This document shows, in pieces, positions 14,128 to 31,340 of a stretch of 64,000 nucleotides of DNA. The DNA is taken from positions 2,000,001-2,064,000 of the forward strand of contig NC_008255.1 in assembly GCF_000014145.1 (NCBI RefSeq). Direction: 5' to 3'. The notes under the pieces are model-generated. The model saw only the letters and a list, made by a program, of their open reading frames with translations. It searched no databases and was not told the origin of the DNA. Source of the stretch: Cytophaga hutchinsonii ATCC 33406 (lineage in GTDB: Bacteria; Bacteroidota; Bacteroidia; Cytophagales; Cytophagaceae). The position numbers and the translations under genes are program-made. Numbering within the stretch: position 1 is the first letter of the stretch; each line of letters begins with the position of its first letter.

Positions 14128-16059
14128 TTATAATATTTTTATTTCCAACCGTCTGTTTTTTTGACGCCCTTCTTCTGAATTATTATCTGCTACAGGACTA
14201 GCGGCTCCATATCCTTTATACGTAATTCCTGCTGGTTTAATTCCGTGTTGTATTAAATAATCATAAACGGCTTTTGCACGCATAGCTGACAGTTTCAGGT
14301 TAGCCTCTGCTGTACCAACATTATCGGTGTATCCGGCCAGTTCAACGCGTTGTGCGGGATTAATCTGAATAAAATTAATAAGCTTTTTCAATTCACTGAT
14401 TGATTTTTCTTCCAATTGATATGAATTGGTTTGAAAGAAAATATTATTGAGTGTTACGTGTGAACCAGATATAATAGGTGTGAGATAAATATCCAATGTA
14501 AGTGCATCAAAACTCGTTGGATTTTTATAATTAACGTTCAGTGATTCGAATAAGTATTTATTTCTGTTTACATATACGGCATACTCCTTTCCTTCTGTAA
14601 TAACAATGGTATATTCACCTGTAATACTATCTGACTGAACAGCCTGTGTGACTGTGTTTGTTTCAATATCAACCAATTCAACACGTGCGCCCAATGGCTT
14701 CTTTGTTTGCTTGTCATAAATATGGCCTTTAGCAAACGTACTTATCCTGCCCGGCTTTAATGATTGAGGAACATCGAACTCGTACAAAAATATTCTGCTG
14801 TTGTAGTTAACATTTGTACCATCAAATCTGGAGTAATATCCTTTGGCGCCATCTACGGTAATGAATAACGTTTCATCATTGGCGTAGGTATTTAATGGAT
14901 AACCGATATTCTTTGGTACAGCCCAGGTTGTATCGTTGCCGGTTGTATAAAAAATATCCAGCCCCCCCATGCCTAATAAACCATTGGATGAAAAATACAA
15001 GGTTGTGCCGTCGGCATGGATGAATGGCGAAAATTCTGTACCGCTTGTATTTACTGATGATCCTGCATTTTGTGCAGGCGACCAGATACCCTTTTCATCC
15101 AAATGCGTCACATAAATATCCTCCTTTCCAAACCCTCCTTTACGTGCTGAAACAAAATACAAGGTTCGGCCATCTGCCGATAAACTCGGGTGCGAATCCC
15201 AGGAAGTACTGTTTACTGCAGGCCCTAAATTTGTTGGTTTAGACCATACATTGTTTACTTTTTTTGAAATGTAAATATCACAGGATCCTAATCCGTCTGC
15301 TTTGCCGCAACCTACAAATACCAGGGAATTTCCATCCATGGAGATGGAGCACGTTCCTTCATTTTCTTTTGAATTGATGTTATCGGATATGGAGACAGGT
15401 TCAGACCATTTGCCGTTTACATAAGAAGAAGTAACGATATTTTCATCATCCTGCCTGGATAAACCGGATAGTGTGGTATAATAAAGTGTTTTACCATCCG
15501 CGGTAAGTACCGGATGAGACTGCGCGAAGGCAGTATTGATAGGCGGTGTCATTAATACCGGTTTAAAATCTACCGGATGTTTCATCATATCAATTGCAAA
15601 ATCACATTTAGCAATATATACAGGAGTTTGCTCTTTAATTTTTTTATCGCCGGATTGAACATTTAGTGCATAGCCAAAATAGCGTTTCGCACGTACATAC
15701 TCCCCTTCATTATACGATAATTCCCCTGCTGTAAAATACGCTCCGGCAAAGGCTTTAACACTGGGGTCCAGATCCGCTCCTTTACAAAAATATCGTGCTG
15801 CAGCTGTTTTATTTCCCATAGCCATGTACATAGACCCGACTTTATAATACGCTTCTACAAAGCCTGTATCCTTTTGTATAACAGCATCAAGCACATTGAT
15901 TGCTTCGTTCCATCTGCGCTGCTGCTGTAAGAGCTCGGCTTCCTGATACGCGGAGATTGATTTCTTGTTTTTTGTATGATAGGTAGTGGTTTGTGCAACT
16001 GAAAAAACACTAAACAACGCCATGCAAATAGTTATGCTGATTACTTTATTAAAACTCAT
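14128..16059 (-). CDS. Second PorE-like protein: TPR, PD40 propeller, carboxypeptidase-like domain, OmpA
   Basis: 643 residues with a signal peptide (start MSFNKVISITICMALFSVFS). The domain order equals its neighbour at 11361: TPR repeats (about 35-150, EAYYKVGSMYMAMGNKTAAARYF); PD40 blades with SADGRTLYFVSARKGGFG, HADGTTLYFSSNGLLGMGG and similar (about 175-415); a carboxypeptidase regulatory-like domain (about 430-510); and OmpA-C (VELAGYTDNVGTAEANLKLS...KGYGAASPV). It is clearly a paralogue, but diverged, so the duplication is not recent. It probably links an outer-membrane or periplasmic machine to peptidoglycan; which machine is not shown by context. Confidence 0.85.
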   Translation of the reverse strand: MSFNKVISITICMALFSVFSVAQTTTYHTKNKKSISAYQEAELLQQQRRWNEAINVLDAVIQKDTGFVEAYYKVGSMYMAMGNKTAAARYFCKGADLDPSVKAFAGAYFTAGELSYNEGEYVRAKRYFGYALNVQSGDKKIKEQTPVYIAKCDFAIDMMKHPVDFKPVLMTPPINTAFAQSHPVLTADGKTLYYTTLSGLSRQDDENIVTSSYVNGKWSEPVSISDNINSKENEGTCSISMDGNSLVFVGCGKADGLGSCDIYISKKVNNVWSKPTNLGPAVNSTSWDSHPSLSADGRTLYFVSARKGGFGKEDIYVTHLDEKGIWSPAQNAGSSVNTSGTEFSPFIHADGTTLYFSSNGLLGMGGLDIFYTTGNDTTWAVPKNIGYPLNTYANDETLFITVDGAKGYYSRFDGTNVNYNSRIFLYEFDVPQSLKPGRISTFAKGHIYDKQTKKPLGARVELVDIETNTVTQAVQSDSITGEYTIVITEGKEYAVYVNRNKYLFESLNVNYKNPTSFDALTLDIYLTPIISGSHVTLNNIFFQTNSYQLEEKSISELKKLINFIQINPAQRVELAGYTDNVGTAEANLKLSAMRAKAVYDYLIQHGIKPAGITYKGYGAASPVADNNSEEGRQKNRRLEIKIL

Positions 16060-19311: not shown

Positions 19312-21102
19312 CTATTGATCCAGTTTCAGGATTGCCATGAAGGCTGCCTGCGGAATCTCGACGTTACCAACCTGGCGCATACGTTTCTTCCCTTTTTTCT
19401 GCTTTTCAAGAAGCTTTCTTTTACGGGAGATATCACCGCCGTAACATTTTGCCAATACGTTTTTGCGCATTGCTTTTACTGTCTCCCGGGCAATGATTTT
19501 TTGTCCGATTGCAGCCTGCACTGCAATCTCAAACATCTGCATCGGGATCAGGTCTTTCAGTTTTTCACACAACCGTTTGCCCCAATCATAGGCTTTATCA
19601 CGGTGAACGATCGCTGACAAGGCATCTACCTTCTCACCATTCAGCATGATATCCAGTTTAATTACATTGGATTCCCGGAAACCGATCAGTTCATAATCCA
19701 GAGAGGCGTAGCCTTTAGAAATGGTTTTTAATTTGTCGAAGAAGTCAAATACAATCTCTGCCAACGGAAGCTCGAATGTTAATTCAACCCGATCCGATGT
19801 TAAGTATGTCTGATTGGTAATGATACCGCGTTTATCCATACACAAGGATATTACAGGGCCAACGAAATCAGCCTTGGTAATGATCTGTGCTTTAATGTAG
19901 GGTTCTTCGATGTAATCCAATGTAGTTGGTTCAGGCATATCAGAAGGTGCATTTACTACAACCATCTCATTGCCCTTTGTAAGATAAGCCTTGAACTGTA
20001 CCGAAGGAACAGTTGTGATCACTGTCATATCAAATTCACGTTCCAGGCGCTCCTGTACAATCTCCATGTGCAGCATTCCTAAGAATCCGCAACGGAAGCC
20101 AAAACCGAGAGCGATGGATGTTTCCGGTTCCCACACCAGAGAAGCGTCATTCAGCTGAAGCTTTTCCATAGCTGCGCGTAAGTCTTCAAACTCACTTGTT
20201 TCAACCGGATAGATACCGGCAAATACCATTGGTTTCACATCTGCAAAACCCTGAATCGGTTCTCCCGGTCTGCTTACGTGTGTAATGGTGTCGCCTACTT
20301 TAACATCTTTCGCTTCTTTGATCCCTGAAATGATATACCCTACATTACCCGCACTCATTTCAAGCTGCGGTTCCTGCTGTAATTTCAATACACCAATTTC
20401 ATCCGCATAGTATTCTTTGCCGATGTTTATGAATTTAACCTTATCTCCTTTTTTAATGGTACCGTTGAAAATACGGAACATAACTTCAATACCTCTGAAT
20501 GAATTGAACTGAGAGTCAAATATCAATGCCTGTAACGGAGCTTTCGGGTCTCCTTTAGGAGGCGGTATACGTTGAATAATGGCTGCAAGAATTTCAAAAA
20601 TACCGATTCCTTCTTTACCGCTGGCAGGTATGATGCTGTCGCGGTCACAACCTAACAATTCAACCACCTGGTCTTTTACTTCTTCCGGCATGGCACCGGG
20701 TAAATCAATCTTATTCAACACCGGAATGATTTCTAAATCATTTTCCAGAGCTAAATATAAATTTGATATTGTCTGTGCTTCTATACCCTGTGCAGCATCA
20801 ACAATCAGTAATGCACCTTCACAGGCCGCAATGGATCGGGATACTTCATAAGAAAAATCGACGTGACCGGGTGTATCTATCAGGTTCAAAACATATTTTT
20901 GTCCTTCATAGATGTAATTCATCTGGATCGCGTGGCTCTTAATCGTGATGCCGCGTTCTCTTTCAAGATCCATATCATCCAATACCTGCGCCTGCATCTG
21001 CCGGTTAGATACTGTACTTGTGAATTCTAATAGTCTGTCTGCCAAGGTACTTTTACCGTGGTCAATATGTGCAATAATGCAGAAATTACGAATGTTTTCC
21101 AT
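19312..21102 (-). CDS. lepA: Elongation factor 4 (LepA), ribosome-associated GTPase
   Basis: A translational GTPase that acts on ribosomes, proposed to back-translocate or assist initiation under stress. 596 residues, normal length. The start is [25 protein letters not shown], with the P-loop [17 protein letters not shown] (G3) and NKIDLPGA (G4) follow. Domain II, EF-G-like domains III and V, and the LepA-specific C-terminal domain ([20 protein letters not shown]) are complete. Promoter -7 box TAAATTTG lies at 21128-21121 on the minus strand, 18 nt before the ATG. Confidence 0.97.
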
Positions 21103-21245: not shown

Positions 21246-23552
21246 ATGAACCTGCCAAAAAACCCATTTGGGGAATGGATTCAAAAAGTATATCACTCTT
21301 TTGCGGTTCAATTGATTTTTAATAATGTAAAAAAAAATCAGATTTTACTTTTTATCTGGATCATTCTGCTGGGTTTTATAACGCGTAATTTTGGTGATAT
21401 TATCGGTATTCCGTACCTGTTTCTGGACCCGGAATATTTATCAGCAACGAATTTCAAGAGTTTCTTTATTATTGGAGTATCGCTGGGGATTTTCATTACT
21501 TCATACCACATAACTATATACATATTAGATAGTTACAAGTTCCCATTTTTAGGAGCAACGCCAAAACCATTTTCTACTTTCTGTCTCAACAACAGCACCA
21601 TGCCGCTATTATTTACGGTGGTTTATATTGCCTGTGTCGTTCAGTTTCAATTTAACTACAGTTTAAAATCTTCCTGGGATATAGTGTGTCAGGTATCCGG
21701 TTTAATAAGCGGACAACTCTTCACTATTGTAATTCTGTTTTTATATTTCAGCAGAACCAATAAAGACATTTTTAAAGAACTAGCCTTATCTGTAAACAAA
21801 ACGCTAAAGAGGAGTACGATCAACCGGGTGAATGTTTTAAAAGATTTTCATTCAAAAAAAATAAAAAATAAATACCACATCACTTCTTTTATCACCTTAA
21901 ACTTTAAGGTTGCTAAAACACCCACGCATGAACATTTAGACCGTTCTATGATGATGCTGATCTTTGATCAAAACCATTTGAATGCGGTTATTGTTGAAAT
22001 CTTTCTGATCACGTTAATCATCAGCCTGGGTTTATTCCGCGACAATCCGATCTTTCAGATACCGGCAGCTGCCAGTGGTATTTTATTTTTCTCGATCATT
22101 GTAATGTTTACCGGTGCATTCTCTTACTGGCTAAGAGGCTGGGCCATTTCTACCCTCATTCTTATTTTAATTGTTTTCAATGTTTTACTGAAGGAAAAAT
22201 TGATACAATCTACCTATCAGGTATTCGGGATCAATTACAGCAAAAAAAATGCAGTCTATAATATGGATCGCTTAAAAGCTTTAAGCAATCAGCAAACATA
22301 TAATGAAGATAAAATGCAGACGATAACCATATTGAATAAATGGCGAAGTCAGTTTCCGGACAGTGCAAAACCAAAGATCATTTTTATCTGCAGCAGCGGC
22401 GGCGGACAACGCGCTGCTGTGTGGACATTACGTACGCTGCAATATGCAGATAGCATGACAAATGGTGCTATGTTTAAACAGACACGTTTAATGACAGGGG
22501 CTTCAGGCGGCATTATCGGAGCTAGTTATTTTAGGGAATTATGTTTATTAAAAGCGCAGGGTAAAATTAAAAGCCCTCATGAATTTCAATATTTAAGTGA
22601 TATTTCAGAAGACGTATTGAATCCGATCGTTTTCAGTATGGTTGTTAACGATCTGTTTTTCAGGTTTCAGAAATTTACCGATGGAAATCATGAATATTAT
22701 AAGGACCGTGGCTATGCTTTTGAACAGAAGTTACATGAAAATACCAACTATGTGCTTTACAAGCGGATCTCCGATTACAAAAAACCGGAAGAGGAAGCAC
22801 AGATTCCGATGCTGATCCTATCCCCTACGATTATTAATGATGGGCGTAAATTATATATTTCACCGTTGAATATTTCATACATGACAACGGCATCAACTAC
22901 ATCAACCAGTTCAACCAATTTCAGACAAAAACTAAAAGGGATCGAATTCAAAAAGTTTTTTGAGGAACAGGATGCAAACGATCTGCATTTTATGAGTGCA
23001 TTGCGTATGAGTGCTACATTCCCATACATTACGCCCAATGTAGATTTGCCAAGTGAACCGGCCATGGAAATCATGGATGCAGGCTTATCCGACAATTTTG
23101 GTGTAAAAGACGCTACATCGTTTTTGTATGTATTTAAAGACTGGATCAGTGCTAATACCAGCGGCGTTATTTTTATTAACATTCGTGATTCAGAAAAAAA
23201 CCAGGAAGTAGAAATTCAGGCACCGGGTTCGGTGTTTCAAAAAATCATTTCTCCGATTGGTGGTTTATATAATAACTGGAGTGATTATCAGGATTTCAAT
23301 AATGATAATTTAATTGAATATGCTTCTTCCTGGTTAAACTGCCCGCTAGAAGTTGTTGAATTTGAATACATTCCTGTTATGAATAAGTTCCTTTCAACGG
23401 AAAATAAACAATCAGCAAAAGACCCTAAAAGCGGCCGTGCTGCATTGAGCTGGCATTTGACCCTGCAGGAAAAAGAAAGCATTTACAATACAATTATGGA
23501 GCCCAATAATCAATCGTCAATAAAACGACTGCAATTTTTATTGAGCCAATAA
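21246..23552 (+). CDS. Membrane-anchored patatin-like phospholipase
   Basis: 768 residues. The N-terminal half (about 1-325) has several hydrophobic segments (LLFIWIILLGFITRNF, FFIIGVSLGIFITSY, LLFTVVYIACVVQF, AVIVEIFLITLIISLG and others). The C-terminal half is a patatin domain: the oxyanion-hole glycines in ICSSGGGQRAA (about 380-390), the nucleophile S420 in GASGG, and the dyad aspartate D611 in MDAGLSDNFGV. It should hydrolyse acyl chains of lipids at the inner face of the membrane; substrate unknown. The DUF5686 outer-membrane protein gene starts 14 nt downstream, so the two are almost certainly one operon. Confidence 0.85.
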   Translation: MNLPKNPFGEWIQKVYHSFAVQLIFNNVKKNQILLFIWIILLGFITRNFGDIIGIPYLFLDPEYLSATNFKSFFIIGVSLGIFITSYHITIYILDSYKFPFLGATPKPFSTFCLNNSTMPLLFTVVYIACVVQFQFNYSLKSSWDIVCQVSGLISGQLFTIVILFLYFSRTNKDIFKELALSVNKTLKRSTINRVNVLKDFHSKKIKNKYHITSFITLNFKVAKTPTHEHLDRSMMMLIFDQNHLNAVIVEIFLITLIISLGLFRDNPIFQIPAAASGILFFSIIVMFTGAFSYWLRGWAISTLILILIVFNVLLKEKLIQSTYQVFGINYSKKNAVYNMDRLKALSNQQTYNEDKMQTITILNKWRSQFPDSAKPKIIFICSSGGGQRAAVWTLRTLQYADSMTNGAMFKQTRLMTGASGGIIGASYFRELCLLKAQGKIKSPHEFQYLSDISEDVLNPIVFSMVVNDLFFRFQKFTDGNHEYYKDRGYAFEQKLHENTNYVLYKRISDYKKPEEEAQIPMLILSPTIINDGRKLYISPLNISYMTTASTTSTSSTNFRQKLKGIEFKKFFEEQDANDLHFMSALRMSATFPYITPNVDLPSEPAMEIMDAGLSDNFGVKDATSFLYVFKDWISANTSGVIFINIRDSEKNQEVEIQAPGSVFQKIISPIGGLYNNWSDYQDFNNDNLIEYASSWLNCPLEVVEFEYIPVMNKFLSTENKQSAKDPKSGRAALSWHLTLQEKESIYNTIMEPNNQSSIKRLQFLLSQ

Positions 23553-23566
23553 TTCTTGTATTTTTG

Positions 23567-25999
23567 ATGGTGCGCAAACATCTTTTCTTCCTGCTGAAAT
23601 ATATTTTATCTGTGTGGCTGCTTCTGCAAGGTATCAGTCATTCTTTTGCACAGACAGATACGTTAAGAGGTCAGATCAGAGAAACCTTTTCAAATCAGGT
23701 ATTACCCTTTGTACATATCACTATTTTTCCTTCGGGCAATGAATTCATCAGCAACATAGATGGCACCTTCAGCATGCCGCATCCGGCAGCTGGAAGTAAA
23801 ATTATATTCAATCGCTTTTTACACCGCACCGTTGAAATAGAAATTACGGGAGGTCCTATCCCGGGAGATACGATGCAGGTAAGATTAAACCGTTTTCAGC
23901 TCTTTCCTCCCTTGCCGCCTACCAATGCGGCTACACTTGATATTATTAAGCATACAATTAATCTTGCCTCCGAAAACAATATCAATAAGCACAAACAGAT
24001 ACAATATCAAACCTATAATAAACTCACTATTGATGTTGGCAATAACAGTCACGTAAATGACCTGTTGAAGAAACTACGTGCAAATGGCTGGTTAAAAATT
24101 GATGACATTTCAGGGAATCAGCATTTGTACATTCTGGAAAGTGTTGCAACCAGAAAAATATTAAACAGTCAGAATCAGCTGGAAAACATTGATGCATTGA
24201 TGAGTTCCGGTATCCGGATTCCGGGTGTAGCATTTCTGGGTACACACCTGCAGCATTTTAATGTGTATGATAATTTTGTGGAAGTAGCGGGTAAAAAATA
24301 TATCAGTCCGCTGGCGCAGAGTCATAGTATAAACCGGTATAATTATCAGATCTTAGATACTCTTTATTTAAAAGACGGAAAATATTTTTCGATCGCCTTT
24401 GCGCCCAAAGCCAGTAAGAACTTTAGCGCGTTAAAAGGCCTGATGCTGATACATGCCAATGATTATTCCGTACGCTACGTGCTTGTGTCTCCAGCCTTTC
24501 AGAATAAAGGCCTGACAGAAGTTACCGTACAATACAAAACAATTGATCATGAACTGTTCCCCGACAGACAAACCATTTATCTGCGCGGAACCGAAGATGT
24601 AGGCGGCTTGTCTCCTATTATTCAATCTTCTACGTGGTATCATTTTTATCAGACAAATAAAAATTTCAAAGACTGTCAGTTCAATGAATGCATCTTATCC
24701 TACAAAGAGGAAGACATTGAAAAAGATACCAACTATTGGAATCAAATGCGGCAAACACCTGCTACGCTGACGGATAAAAATACCTATACCTATTTTCAAA
24801 ATGGAATCAACCCATTGCTGCTGCAAAAGTTTCTGAACCTGGGGCAAAATATTTATTTCGGAAAGCTCACCGTAGGTTATGTTAACTTTGACCTGAATAA
24901 AATACTCAATCACAACCGGGCTGAGGGATTCCGCATCGGTATTGGCGGAACAACCAATTACAGGTTCTCTAAAATCTGGAAATTCTCAGCCTTTGTTGGT
25001 TATGGTTTTGGTGATACTAAATTTAAATACGGCCTGGGTGTAGAAAGGATGTTGTATCTGCCTAAAAAATGTGCGGCAGGCATCAGCTTCAGTAATGAAT
25101 TGCAGGAAGCCGGCGGGCAGCAACAGGCCTTTGACACACCCCAATATTCCAGTGAAACATTGCGCCGGTTACTTATTACCTATATGGATTACACAAAAAA
25201 TCTGATGGTATATTTTAAGGCTCATCCGATTACCTATCTCGATTATAAAATGTCTTTTTCCTATCAGCATACGTTGCCCAATTATAACTATGTGTATAAA
25301 GGAGAAGCATTTGAATCGATCAATTATTTTGAATGGAGTAATGGTATTCGTTATGCGTTTGGAGAACAGGAAATACATTTAAACGATGAAATTATTAAGC
25401 AGCTTTCCAAATATCCTATTCTGTATTTCAATATTGACAAAGGTTTTAAAATAAGCAATCAGCCGTTTACGTACACCCGCTATGAATTCCGGATTGATCA
25501 GTTTATTAAAATTGTAGATCTGGGTAAAACAGGTATACAGATGGTTGGCGGTGCAACTTCAGGGTATGCGCCTTACAGTAAATTGTTTGTAGGTAAAGGC
25601 AGCAGTAAAAGCGCTGGTGTGGTGGTACACAATAGTTTTGAAACGATGGGCTATAATGAATTTGTTGCTGACCGGTATTATGGTTTATTTTTAAGCCATG
25701 ATTTTGGAAGAATGTATTACCGCAGCCGGTTCTTTATGCCAAACTTCATGGTTATCTATAACATCGGCTGGGGATTTCTGTCACATCCGGAATACCATGC
25801 AGGACCACAAATGAAAGATTACAGCAAAGGCTACAAAGAAACGGGCGCATTTATTAACAATATAGTAGTATTGAAATTATCAGGTCTTAAAATGGGTATT
25901 GGAGCCGGTGTATTTTTCAGATATGGTGAATACCAATATCCTAAAACATCCGATAACGCGGTGTTTAAATTCTCATTGAATTTATCGCCGGGATCGTAA
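23567..25999 (+). CDS. DUF5686-type outer-membrane barrel with carboxypeptidase-like N-terminal domain
   Basis: About 810 residues from ATG 23567 (MVRKHLFFLLKYILSVWLLL), with a signal peptide ending near SFAQ. Residues about 33-110 are a carboxypeptidase regulatory-like beta-sandwich (TLRGQIRETFSNQVLPFVHITIF...NIDGTFSMP), as in the plug-side domains of Bacteroidota outer-membrane receptors. The rest is long, rich in Tyr/Phe/Asn and alternating beta strands, and ends KFSLNLSPGS, consistent with an outer-membrane barrel. It matches my knowledge of the DUF5686 family. No ligand is known. It is operon partner of the patatin gene; the ORF's TTG at 23564 is part of a TATTTTTG string. Confidence 0.8.
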   Translation: MVRKHLFFLLKYILSVWLLLQGISHSFAQTDTLRGQIRETFSNQVLPFVHITIFPSGNEFISNIDGTFSMPHPAAGSKIIFNRFLHRTVEIEITGGPIPGDTMQVRLNRFQLFPPLPPTNAATLDIIKHTINLASENNINKHKQIQYQTYNKLTIDVGNNSHVNDLLKKLRANGWLKIDDISGNQHLYILESVATRKILNSQNQLENIDALMSSGIRIPGVAFLGTHLQHFNVYDNFVEVAGKKYISPLAQSHSINRYNYQILDTLYLKDGKYFSIAFAPKASKNFSALKGLMLIHANDYSVRYVLVSPAFQNKGLTEVTVQYKTIDHELFPDRQTIYLRGTEDVGGLSPIIQSSTWYHFYQTNKNFKDCQFNECILSYKEEDIEKDTNYWNQMRQTPATLTDKNTYTYFQNGINPLLLQKFLNLGQNIYFGKLTVGYVNFDLNKILNHNRAEGFRIGIGGTTNYRFSKIWKFSAFVGYGFGDTKFKYGLGVERMLYLPKKCAAGISFSNELQEAGGQQQAFDTPQYSSETLRRLLITYMDYTKNLMVYFKAHPITYLDYKMSFSYQHTLPNYNYVYKGEAFESINYFEWSNGIRYAFGEQEIHLNDEIIKQLSKYPILYFNIDKGFKISNQPFTYTRYEFRIDQFIKIVDLGKTGIQMVGGATSGYAPYSKLFVGKGSSKSAGVVVHNSFETMGYNEFVADRYYGLFLSHDFGRMYYRSRFFMPNFMVIYNIGWGFLSHPEYHAGPQMKDYSKGYKETGAFINNIVVLKLSGLKMGIGAGVFFRYGEYQYPKTSDNAVFKFSLNLSPGS

Positions 26000-26052: not shown

Positions 26053-27042
26053 TCACTGTTGTTTTTGCAGTGTTTTCCTTTTAATTTCATTTGTCTTTTT
26101 ATCCAGGTACATAAATTCGGTATTGCTTACCCATGTAAGAAAGCACCAGTCCTGAGAATCTTCAAAAGACATTTTTAATTTAATATGTTCATCCAGTACA
26201 AACACCTGATTATACTGATCACGGGCAAGTAACAGCTGTTGATCCGGAGAAAGATCATAATCTTCAAACGATGCGTTTTTTGTCTTGCATTCCCTGCATC
26301 TTCTGGTTCCCTGAAAGGGTTTCTTTTTATGTTTATAGTCTATCGTACGAAGTTTTTCTCCATCAGCATTATAGAATTCAAGAATACTTCCGTCACTGAA
26401 TTCCTGTAAAATCATAAACAGATTGTGTTGCCTGTTCGCTTTTGAAAAACTGCGGTGTGGTGCTGGAATTTCTTTGATTACTTTTCCATCGAGTAAAATA
26501 ATGTAATTCATTTGTGTACCGGAAATACCTAATCTATTGCCTTGCAGCAAAGAGATGGATGTAAGCTCATAAACGCCGGAAAGAAATACCAGCCTGACCT
26601 GCCGTGTACTTATATCAAAAGAATAAACAGCGCTTTCAGATGACAAGGCATCGATCTTGGTATTTACTGTCAGATATACCACATGTTGCCCCGGCGTTGC
26701 AGTCAGCGCAGAAATAACTCCTTTAAACGGAATTTCTTCTTTAAGTTCTCCTTCAAAAGAATATACATACAACATACCCGCATAATCACTGACGCCTGTA
26801 TAGGTTAAGATCACATCCGGATTTTTTTGAATAAACGCGCGTGTTCCTTTTATCTGCAGCTGTTTTTCATTTCGCATGTAGTCTGCATGAGCTGCCCTGC
26901 CGATAACAATAAGTCCTGAAGCAGAATCAATGGAAAGACTGTTGTATAAACCAATATGATCAAGATAAACGGCATTGAATTGTGCATCCGCTGACACAGC
27001 CATCAATAAAAAAAATACAGGAAGCAGGATTGTTTTTTTCAT
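26053..27042 (-). CDS. Exported protein of unknown function, propeller-like
   Basis: 329 residues with a signal peptide (MKKTILLPVFFLLMAVSADA). The mature part has repeated beta-rich segments with Gly/Asp turns (SIDSASGLIVIGRAAHADY, YAGMLYVYSFEGELKEE, SAVYSFDISTRQVRLVF, DYDLSPDQQLLLARDQ), suggesting a beta-propeller. A CRECKTK cysteine pair is near residue 250. No named family is recognised. It converges on the DUF5686 gene at about 50 bp and has its own upstream region. Confidence 0.75.
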   Translation of the reverse strand: MKKTILLPVFFLLMAVSADAQFNAVYLDHIGLYNSLSIDSASGLIVIGRAAHADYMRNEKQLQIKGTRAFIQKNPDVILTYTGVSDYAGMLYVYSFEGELKEEIPFKGVISALTATPGQHVVYLTVNTKIDALSSESAVYSFDISTRQVRLVFLSGVYELTSISLLQGNRLGISGTQMNYIILLDGKVIKEIPAPHRSFSKANRQHNLFMILQEFSDGSILEFYNADGEKLRTIDYKHKKKPFQGTRRCRECKTKNASFEDYDLSPDQQLLLARDQYNQVFVLDEHIKLKMSFEDSQDWCFLTWVSNTEFMYLDKKTNEIKRKTLQKQQ

Positions 27043-29573: not shown

Positions 29574-31340
29574 ATGAAAATACTACACCTGATACCTGTA
29601 TTTTTTTTATATGTTGTTCACGCAGCTGCGCAATCTCCTACACTCCTGATTGAAGATTTTGAAGATGGCAATACGCAAAATAATTTAGGCGGCTATTGGT
29701 ATAGCTTTAATGATAATCCTAATGGTGGCAAAAGCCGGTTGAAACAGACCGCCTGGCAGAAAGAAGCATTTGTTCAGACAGGTGGCTATCAGTCTGCAGG
29801 TATGTTTCAGGTAGACGTTATCCTTGAAAAAGGGAACTATCAATGGAATCCCTATTTTGCATTTGCAACCAGTGTTGCTAAATCTGTTCCCAATAATATA
29901 AACCCTGCTTCCTTTGCAGGTATCTCTTACTGGCATAAAGGCGTGGCACACAAAGTGCGGGTTGAAACCGCTGAAGTTACCGATTATGATTTCTATTCAA
30001 TGCGGGTGCCGGCAAGCGATGTATGGACCTTTGTTACCATTGATTTTTCCATGTTAAATCAGGAAGGCTGGGGTAAGAAAGTTCCACTGAATCTGGACAA
30101 CTCCATCAAACTAATCTGGAACCTGGATGAGACATCCGGCAATTTTCAGCTGGATGATATACGTTTTGTGAAACAAATCACCTATGTTAAACAGCATAAT
30201 ATGGAAATCCTTCCGGCTGAAATACCTTCACCCATTGCGGTAAAAGGAAATGTCTCAAATCCGTTAAACGATTTGTCGAAAAAGTATTTAACCAAAGGAT
30301 TGAATCTTGCCAGCTGGGCCGAAGCAAATAAAATTACTTCTGCCAATCCAAAAGACTGGAAATACAATGAAGCAATTATTAAGCTGCAGGCCGAACAGGG
30401 GCTGCTGGGTATCCGTTTCCCGATTGATCTGGACCTCTATGTAGTAGATCGCTTAAATGTATTGAATGGCACCAAAAAGAAAATAGAAATAGAACCGATG
30501 CTCTATACCTTGATGGACTCCATGAATATCTGGACCAAACGCTATGGACTTTCCTTAACAATCGATTATCATGCCTATGATGGAAGCTACAACAGAGCAT
30601 CTTCCAAGGATCCAAAATTCAGAGAAGCGGTTTCTTCTTTGTGGCGTGTGGTGGCACAGCATTTTGTTAAAGAGAAACGTGAAGACTTGTTTTTTGAATT
30701 AACCAACGAACCTTGTTTAAGTTTACCGGAAGGCGAATACATTGATCAGACAGACTGGACATTACTTGCTCAAATGATGATTGACTCTATACGCCGGGTG
30801 GATAAAACACGTCCGATTATTTTCGGCGATACAAAATGGTATAGCTTAGACGAATTAATTAAAAATAAGCCGTTAAAAGATCCGTATGTAATCTACTGTT
30901 TCCATATGTACGATCCGTTCTTGTTTACACATCAGGGAGCTTCATGGGCCAATATGGGCACCATGAAAAACATTCCGTTCCCGTATTCACCTGAACGCTG
31001 GTCTACAGAGTTCCGCGACTTTGGTATTGTAGACGGTACACCGGCCTGGGTAAAAGACCTGGCAAAAAGGTATTATCAGGAAGGAAATAAACAGTTTATC
31101 AAAAACAGGCTGGCGAAAGTAAAAAACTGGGCATATGAATATAATGTTCCGCTGATCTGCAATGAATGGGGAGCTTTACCGAACACAGCTAAAATCGAAG
31201 ACCTGAACGCGTACTTTAAAACCATGGGAGAAATTTTCGAAGAGATGGATATTTCGTGGCAGGTATGGTTTGGTATTATGGATTCAGACTATAAATTACT
31301 GCCGGGAATGGCTGAAGCACTGCATTTGAAAAAGAAATAG
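29574..31340 (+). CDS. Glycoside hydrolase family 5 endoglucanase-like cellulase with N-terminal beta-sandwich domain
   Basis: 588 residues with a signal peptide (MKILHLIPVFFLYVVHAAAQ). Residues about 22-200 form a CBM11/CIA30-like carbohydrate-binding sandwich (IEDFEDGNTQNNLGGYW...KVPLNLDNSIKLIWNLD). The GH5 barrel follows (about 235-585): the acid/base is E379 in FELTNEP and the nucleophile E531 in ICNEWGA, with the conserved IRFPIDL, DYHAY and FHMYDP segments. It should cleave beta-1,4-glucans such as cellulose. There is no T9SS sorting domain at the C-terminus (it ends HLKKK), so it may stay periplasmic or use another route. A terminator follows. Confidence 0.9.
   Translation: MKILHLIPVFFLYVVHAAAQSPTLLIEDFEDGNTQNNLGGYWYSFNDNPNGGKSRLKQTAWQKEAFVQTGGYQSAGMFQVDVILEKGNYQWNPYFAFATSVAKSVPNNINPASFAGISYWHKGVAHKVRVETAEVTDYDFYSMRVPASDVWTFVTIDFSMLNQEGWGKKVPLNLDNSIKLIWNLDETSGNFQLDDIRFVKQITYVKQHNMEILPAEIPSPIAVKGNVSNPLNDLSKKYLTKGLNLASWAEANKITSANPKDWKYNEAIIKLQAEQGLLGIRFPIDLDLYVVDRLNVLNGTKKKIEIEPMLYTLMDSMNIWTKRYGLSLTIDYHAYDGSYNRASSKDPKFREAVSSLWRVVAQHFVKEKREDLFFELTNEPCLSLPEGEYIDQTDWTLLAQMMIDSIRRVDKTRPIIFGDTKWYSLDELIKNKPLKDPYVIYCFHMYDPFLFTHQGASWANMGTMKNIPFPYSPERWSTEFRDFGIVDGTPAWVKDLAKRYYQEGNKQFIKNRLAKVKNWAYEYNVPLICNEWGALPNTAKIEDLNAYFKTMGEIFEEMDISWQVWFGIMDSDYKLLPGMAEALHLKKK

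Follow-up and report, generated by a model that had tools for sequence, protein, structure and literature searches.

The window analysed here is a 64,000-nucleotide stretch of the Cytophaga hutchinsonii ATCC 33406 genome (NC_008255.1 positions 2,000,001-2,064,000), in which a gene for a polytopic patatin is followed by a gene for a DUF5686 protein (table 1). Both open reading frames were found where a sequence-only reading of this DNA had placed them, and the multi-pass N-terminal half and complete catalytic set that it had noted in the patatin were also recovered.

Table 1. Features of the patatin-DUF5686 locus, in window positions.
Feature	Position	Strand	Basis
lepA, divergent flank (context only)	19312..21102	-	Position beside folD and queE conserved in the family
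Polytopic patatin-like acyl hydrolase, 768 aa	21246..23552	+	Open frame; PF01734; full-length homologues; AlphaFold
Membrane domain at the N-terminus (residues 1-316; 6 or 7 TM helices)	21246..22193	+	Mean hydrophobicity and charge (74 homologues); model helices; conservation
Patatin/iPLA2-fold catalytic domain, residues 368-768	22347..23549	+	VIA-align structural matches
GGG oxyanion-hole codons 385-387	22398..22406	+	Invariant in 74 of 74 homologues
Nucleophile Ser420 in GASGG	22503..22505	+	Invariant in 74 of 74 homologues
Catalytic Asp611 in DAG	23076..23078	+	Invariant in 74 of 74 homologues
DUF5686 protein, probable outer-membrane barrel, 811 aa from TTG	23564..25999	+	PF18939; subtype confined to this locus in Cytophagaceae; start codon from sister species
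CarboxypepD_reg-like N-terminal domain of the DUF5686 protein, as in SusC	23666..23848	+	Weak PF13715 match; profile match

The sole Pfam domain of the patatin protein was Patatin (PF01734), which covered residues 382-623 and scored 63.5 bits (curated cut-off 27.7; E = 4e-17). The AlphaFold model, built from 74 sequences, was confident (pLDDT 88, pTM 0.89). Structural comparison of this predicted model over residues 365-768, a search that barely covered the membrane domain, aligned the catalytic domain with iPLA2-beta (6aun, VIA-align Z 22.4), plant patatin (4pkb, 21.6) and PlpD (5fya, 19.1), and also with CapE and CapV (Z about 21), all of them at Z 19-22. No solved relative of either protein was detected by phmmer, and NCBIfam gave no match of note for either. 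None of the PADLOC defence models matched the patatin at E up to 1, and a defence role, including that of a CBASS patatin effector, was rejected on this ground; the one weak PADLOC match to the DUF5686 protein (E = 0.0015 over 48 residues) was discounted. Only one other patatin-domain gene was found in the C. hutchinsonii genome (2345536-2346135, L004), encoding a cytosolic-type protein of 342 aa.

The downstream protein matched DUF5686 (PF18939) with E = 6.6e-33 (114.5 bits against a cut-off of 39.2) and carries an apparent signal peptide. Its N-terminal domain gave profile matches to the N-terminal domains of SusC (E = 1.4e-14) and is the only part with solved relatives; PF13715, weak in the window protein, matched in 19 of 21 family members. 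An AlphaFold model from four sequences reached only pLDDT 37, and the assignment as a probable outer-membrane barrel draws on general knowledge of the family. We know of no function for this large family, and our literature search found no paper on it. A second DUF5686 gene of C. hutchinsonii, at 1.92 Mb, belongs to a different subtype. The gap between the two genes, previously given as 14 nt, is indeed short, but that figure holds only from the ATG at 23567 (a start that would give 810 aa), which is not conserved in sister species. The context of this codon is TTGATGGTG in the window, compared with TTGAGAGTG and TTGGTTGTG in two other genomes of the genus, where AGA or GTT stands in its place, while the TTG at 23564 and the GTG at 23570, also a possible start, are kept. 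The real gap is therefore probably 11 nt (TTG) or 17 nt (GTG).

The arrangement of the two genes was compared across the family. The patatin is directly followed by DUF5686 on the same strand in 15 of 19 Cytophagaceae genomes, and the operon-like pair thus extends well beyond C. hutchinsonii. Gaps range from -4 to 11 nt in most of these genomes, and the 4-nt overlap seen in four of them suggests translational coupling. Scans for sigma-70 and Bacteroidetes-type promoters and for terminators at the patatin-DUF5686 locus performed no better than on shuffled sequence. Among the remaining genomes, one has the patatin relocated beside gldC and a pyrD-like gene, without the DUF5686 subtype; a second shows the same relocated arrangement on a contig that ends just after the patatin, which has probably also been kept without the subtype; one has DUF5686 without a patatin match; and one, incomplete, has neither. 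At L037 and L038 (about 9.3-12.3 kb) the relocated patatin lies directly after the gliding gene gldC (TIGR03515, E = 1.9e-38 and 1.9e-41). In the Sporocytophaga assembly (L036/L240), the patatin is intact but the DUF5686 gene behind it is broken into three frames (L036:12280-14696), reflecting either a decayed gene or assembly errors.

In the tree, the paired DUF5686 proteins formed a single supported clade, apart from the second DUF5686 of the genome and from class-wide ones. The DUF5686 of L066, a more distant Bacteroidia genome in which it lies one gene from the patatin at the same lepA locus, was sister to this clade, and one unpaired member (L235) was nested inside it. The intervening gene of L066 (12254-13315) encodes 353 aa and has no NCBIfam match. 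This topology points to one origin with occasional loss; the pairing thus appears to have arisen once, to have been kept for a long time and to have been lost sometimes.

A single origin is also what would be expected if the pair were simply part of an old queE-folD-lepA/patatin-DUF5686 stretch that had stayed intact in a family whose genomes rearrange slowly, the two genes being functionally unrelated. The upstream block is as conserved as the pair itself in Cytophagaceae, lepA and folD (and queE where covered) lying beside the pair in every family locus in which that side is visible, and some of the pairing could be due to nothing more than shared synteny. However, gene order changes between genera right after DUF5686 (in the window, the gene at 26053-27042 lies on the opposite strand), while patatin and DUF5686 stay within a few nucleotides of each other. 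Moreover, where the patatin has moved (G467 and G468), the DUF5686 subtype was not found in the genome, instead of having been left behind. We therefore regard inherited synteny as a possible but somewhat doubtful explanation. As further features of the surroundings, a protein with TPR, PD40 propeller and OmpA-like domains is encoded at 14128-16059 on the minus strand of the window, its gene holding the same position close to lepA and the patatin in most genomes of the family, and a GH5 cellulase gene at 29574-31340 (PF00150, E = 2.9e-26) fits the cellulose-degrading host.

Outside this family the patatin lacks a constant neighbour. Full-length homologues of the polytopic patatin were present in 188 of 295 genomes of the class Bacteroidia, nearly all in single copy and mostly at 35-44% identity. 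In a phylum-level sample of 198 complete genomes, it occurred in 15, all within Bacteroidia. The expectation that adjacency to DUF5686 would be conserved across many Bacteroidota lineages was not borne out: among 65 homologous patatin loci with at least 2.6 kb downstream, a survey that undersampled Cytophagaceae, DUF5686 was the next gene in only 3 and one gene away in 1, and all four of these loci are in or close to the Cytophagaceae clade. A same-strand gene followed the patatin in only 30 of the 65. No conserved third partner was identified, the patatin neighbours in other lineages being lineage-specific and mostly housekeeping-looking genes. Among the matches listed for the 295 genomes, 70 had both genes, 27 DUF5686 only, 115 patatin only and 83 neither. 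Co-occurrence, the other sign of a shared system that had been proposed, was thus positive on these matches with kinship ignored (odds ratio 1.9, p = 0.02), but weak. Unpaired DUF5686 genes had an RND-type transporter-like gene nearby in 3 of 20 cases and a kdsB-like gene in 4 of 20 (three of these from a single genus); these names come from sequence appearance and the cases are too few to use. The transporter-like genes, resembling the RND-type (MmpL-like) by the same judgement, lie beside or near DUF5686 at L158, L159 and L165. Most likely, the polytopic patatins form a general family of the housekeeping type in Bacteroidia and need no fixed partner.

Patatins of the size expected for PL-Omp85 proteins, recognised by open-frame size only (760-840 aa with a patatin domain), occur alongside the polytopic patatin in many genomes, and the latter is therefore no general replacement for them. 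The idea that the two types are mutually exclusive was discarded, as both are present, for example, in G014, G095 and G062. In the C. hutchinsonii genome a patatin of PL-Omp85 size was not found, unlike in most of its class relatives.

On which side of the inner membrane the patatin acts depends on its last hydrophobic run. Hydrophobicity averaged over the homologues gave six clear segments (near residues 41, 82, 127, 159, 254 and 283), with the run continuing to 314 and including a strongly hydrophobic seventh segment at 297-315. Residues 172-232 (about 170-232) form a positively charged loop, which is probably cytoplasmic, and the positive-inside pattern of loop charges over 74 homologues gives a predicted N-terminus inside. 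By a rough estimate, the insertion energy of 297-315 is -1.25 (negative in 97% of sequences), which is near the -1.62 of TM6, whereas soluble helices give +4 to +7. If this segment inserts as a seventh TM helix, the catalytic domain emerges on the periplasmic side. The conserved Trp295-x-x-x-Trp299 surrounds a turn with R, K or G at position 297 and a variable position 298, and the charges just past residue 316 are mixed, without a positive cluster. Cysteine is scarce in the catalytic domain (0.33%; exported proteins, identified roughly, have 0.41%, and the overall average is 0.70%). Taken together, the hydrophobicity, the charges and the low cysteine content make a topology of seven TM helices with the active site in the periplasm probable; we consider the periplasmic placement fairly likely, even with the AlphaFold model counting against it.

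In that model residues 274-316 form one unbroken helix, which implies that the chain crosses the membrane six times and that the active site is cytoplasmic. The enzyme would then serve inner-leaflet or new-lipid turnover, or act as a regulated lipase, and DUF5686 would be unrelated and merely co-transcribed. The continuous helix, in a confident model, agrees with this placement, as do the lack of a conserved patatin neighbour outside Cytophagaceae and the fold matches to CapV and CapE; well-studied bacterial patatins such as these are cytosolic. Nevertheless, a run of 42 residues, charged only at 297 (R/K/G) and at the variable 298, exceeds one TM helix, the tryptophan pair around the Gly/Arg turn resembles a hairpin, and the mixed charges after 316 and the scarcity of cysteine also count against a cytoplasmic domain. 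A cytoplasmic catalytic domain is thus rather unlikely. Conservation of the membrane domain matches that of the catalytic domain (mean top-residue frequency 0.60 in each, with 20-22% of columns conserved at 90% or more in both, over 74 homologues), and the membrane domain contains conserved polar residues (D61, E63, N115, N116, Q242, N243 and H244). It would accordingly be expected to do more than anchor the enzyme.

The reading that we prefer, and to which we give about an even chance, is that the patatin works in the inner membrane as an acyl hydrolase of envelope lipids, able to do so without the barrel, and that it was linked once to DUF5686 in Cytophagaceae. It would be a serine acyl hydrolase with a Ser420-Asp611 dyad, embedded in the inner membrane by a domain of seven helices. 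Its C-terminal domain, most likely facing the periplasm, would remove acyl chains from membrane lipids, be they phospholipids, lysolipids or further acyl lipids of the envelope, by analogy with the periplasmic patatin domain of PlpD, which does this from the outer membrane. The sulfonolipids of gliding Cytophaga were also considered as a possible substrate. In the Cytophagaceae lineage the gene would have become co-transcribed, once, with that of an outer-membrane DUF5686 protein, for which the same outer-membrane lipids may be a signal or a substrate, or which may only share regulation. A joint lipid-remodelling job for the two proteins is plausible. The most ambitious version, in which the patatin represents an undescribed class of periplasm-facing polytopic inner-membrane phospholipases widespread in Bacteroidia and forms with a dedicated DUF5686 barrel a two-membrane lipid-remodelling unit in Cytophagaceae, seems to us unlikely. 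Still less probable is a trans-envelope pair in which the patatin frees a fatty acid, a lysolipid or part of a head group, and the DUF5686 barrel exports or imports this product or inserts it into the outer membrane: it fits the operon-like order in 15 of 19 family genomes, the four overlaps and the one origin shared with the related L066 arrangement, but the patatin stands alone in most lineages and DUF5686 proteins of other families adjoin unrelated genes.

Envelope lipid turnover in Bacteroidota is poorly described. In this setting, a conserved, mostly single-copy polytopic patatin with an intact active site makes a clear envelope-lipase candidate in Bacteroidia, and the family merits attention above the pair itself, while the Cytophagaceae pair offers a concrete handle on DUF5686. 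In agreement with the earlier statement that no described function was known for the combination, our literature search found no paper on it.

The nearest points of comparison are the PL-Omp85 proteins PlpD of Pseudomonas and FplA of Fusobacterium, which share with the window protein the patatin fold, the Ser-Asp dyad and a tie to an envelope membrane. In PlpD the patatin domain is periplasmic, and a deletion strain had raised phospholipids (PMC11116518). PlpD, however, is one polypeptide with a signal peptide, patatin, POTRA and 16-strand Omp85 barrel, whereas here a polytopic inner-membrane domain precedes the patatin domain and the candidate barrel is a separate DUF5686 protein. The Omp85 and POTRA Pfam models had no match in the patatin or its DUF5686 neighbour, and the one-polypeptide layout of PL-Omp85 does not apply to them. 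Plant patatin and iPLA2-beta share some 300 residues of the catalytic fold (Z about 22) at 11-13% identity, but are without the polytopic N-terminal membrane domain. The CBASS effectors CapV and CapE likewise have the patatin fold, but are soluble and lack a membrane domain. Finally, the partner resembles other Bacteroidota DUF5686 proteins in its above-cut-off PF18939 match and SusC-type N-terminal domain, and differs from them in that its subtype forms a clade of its own.
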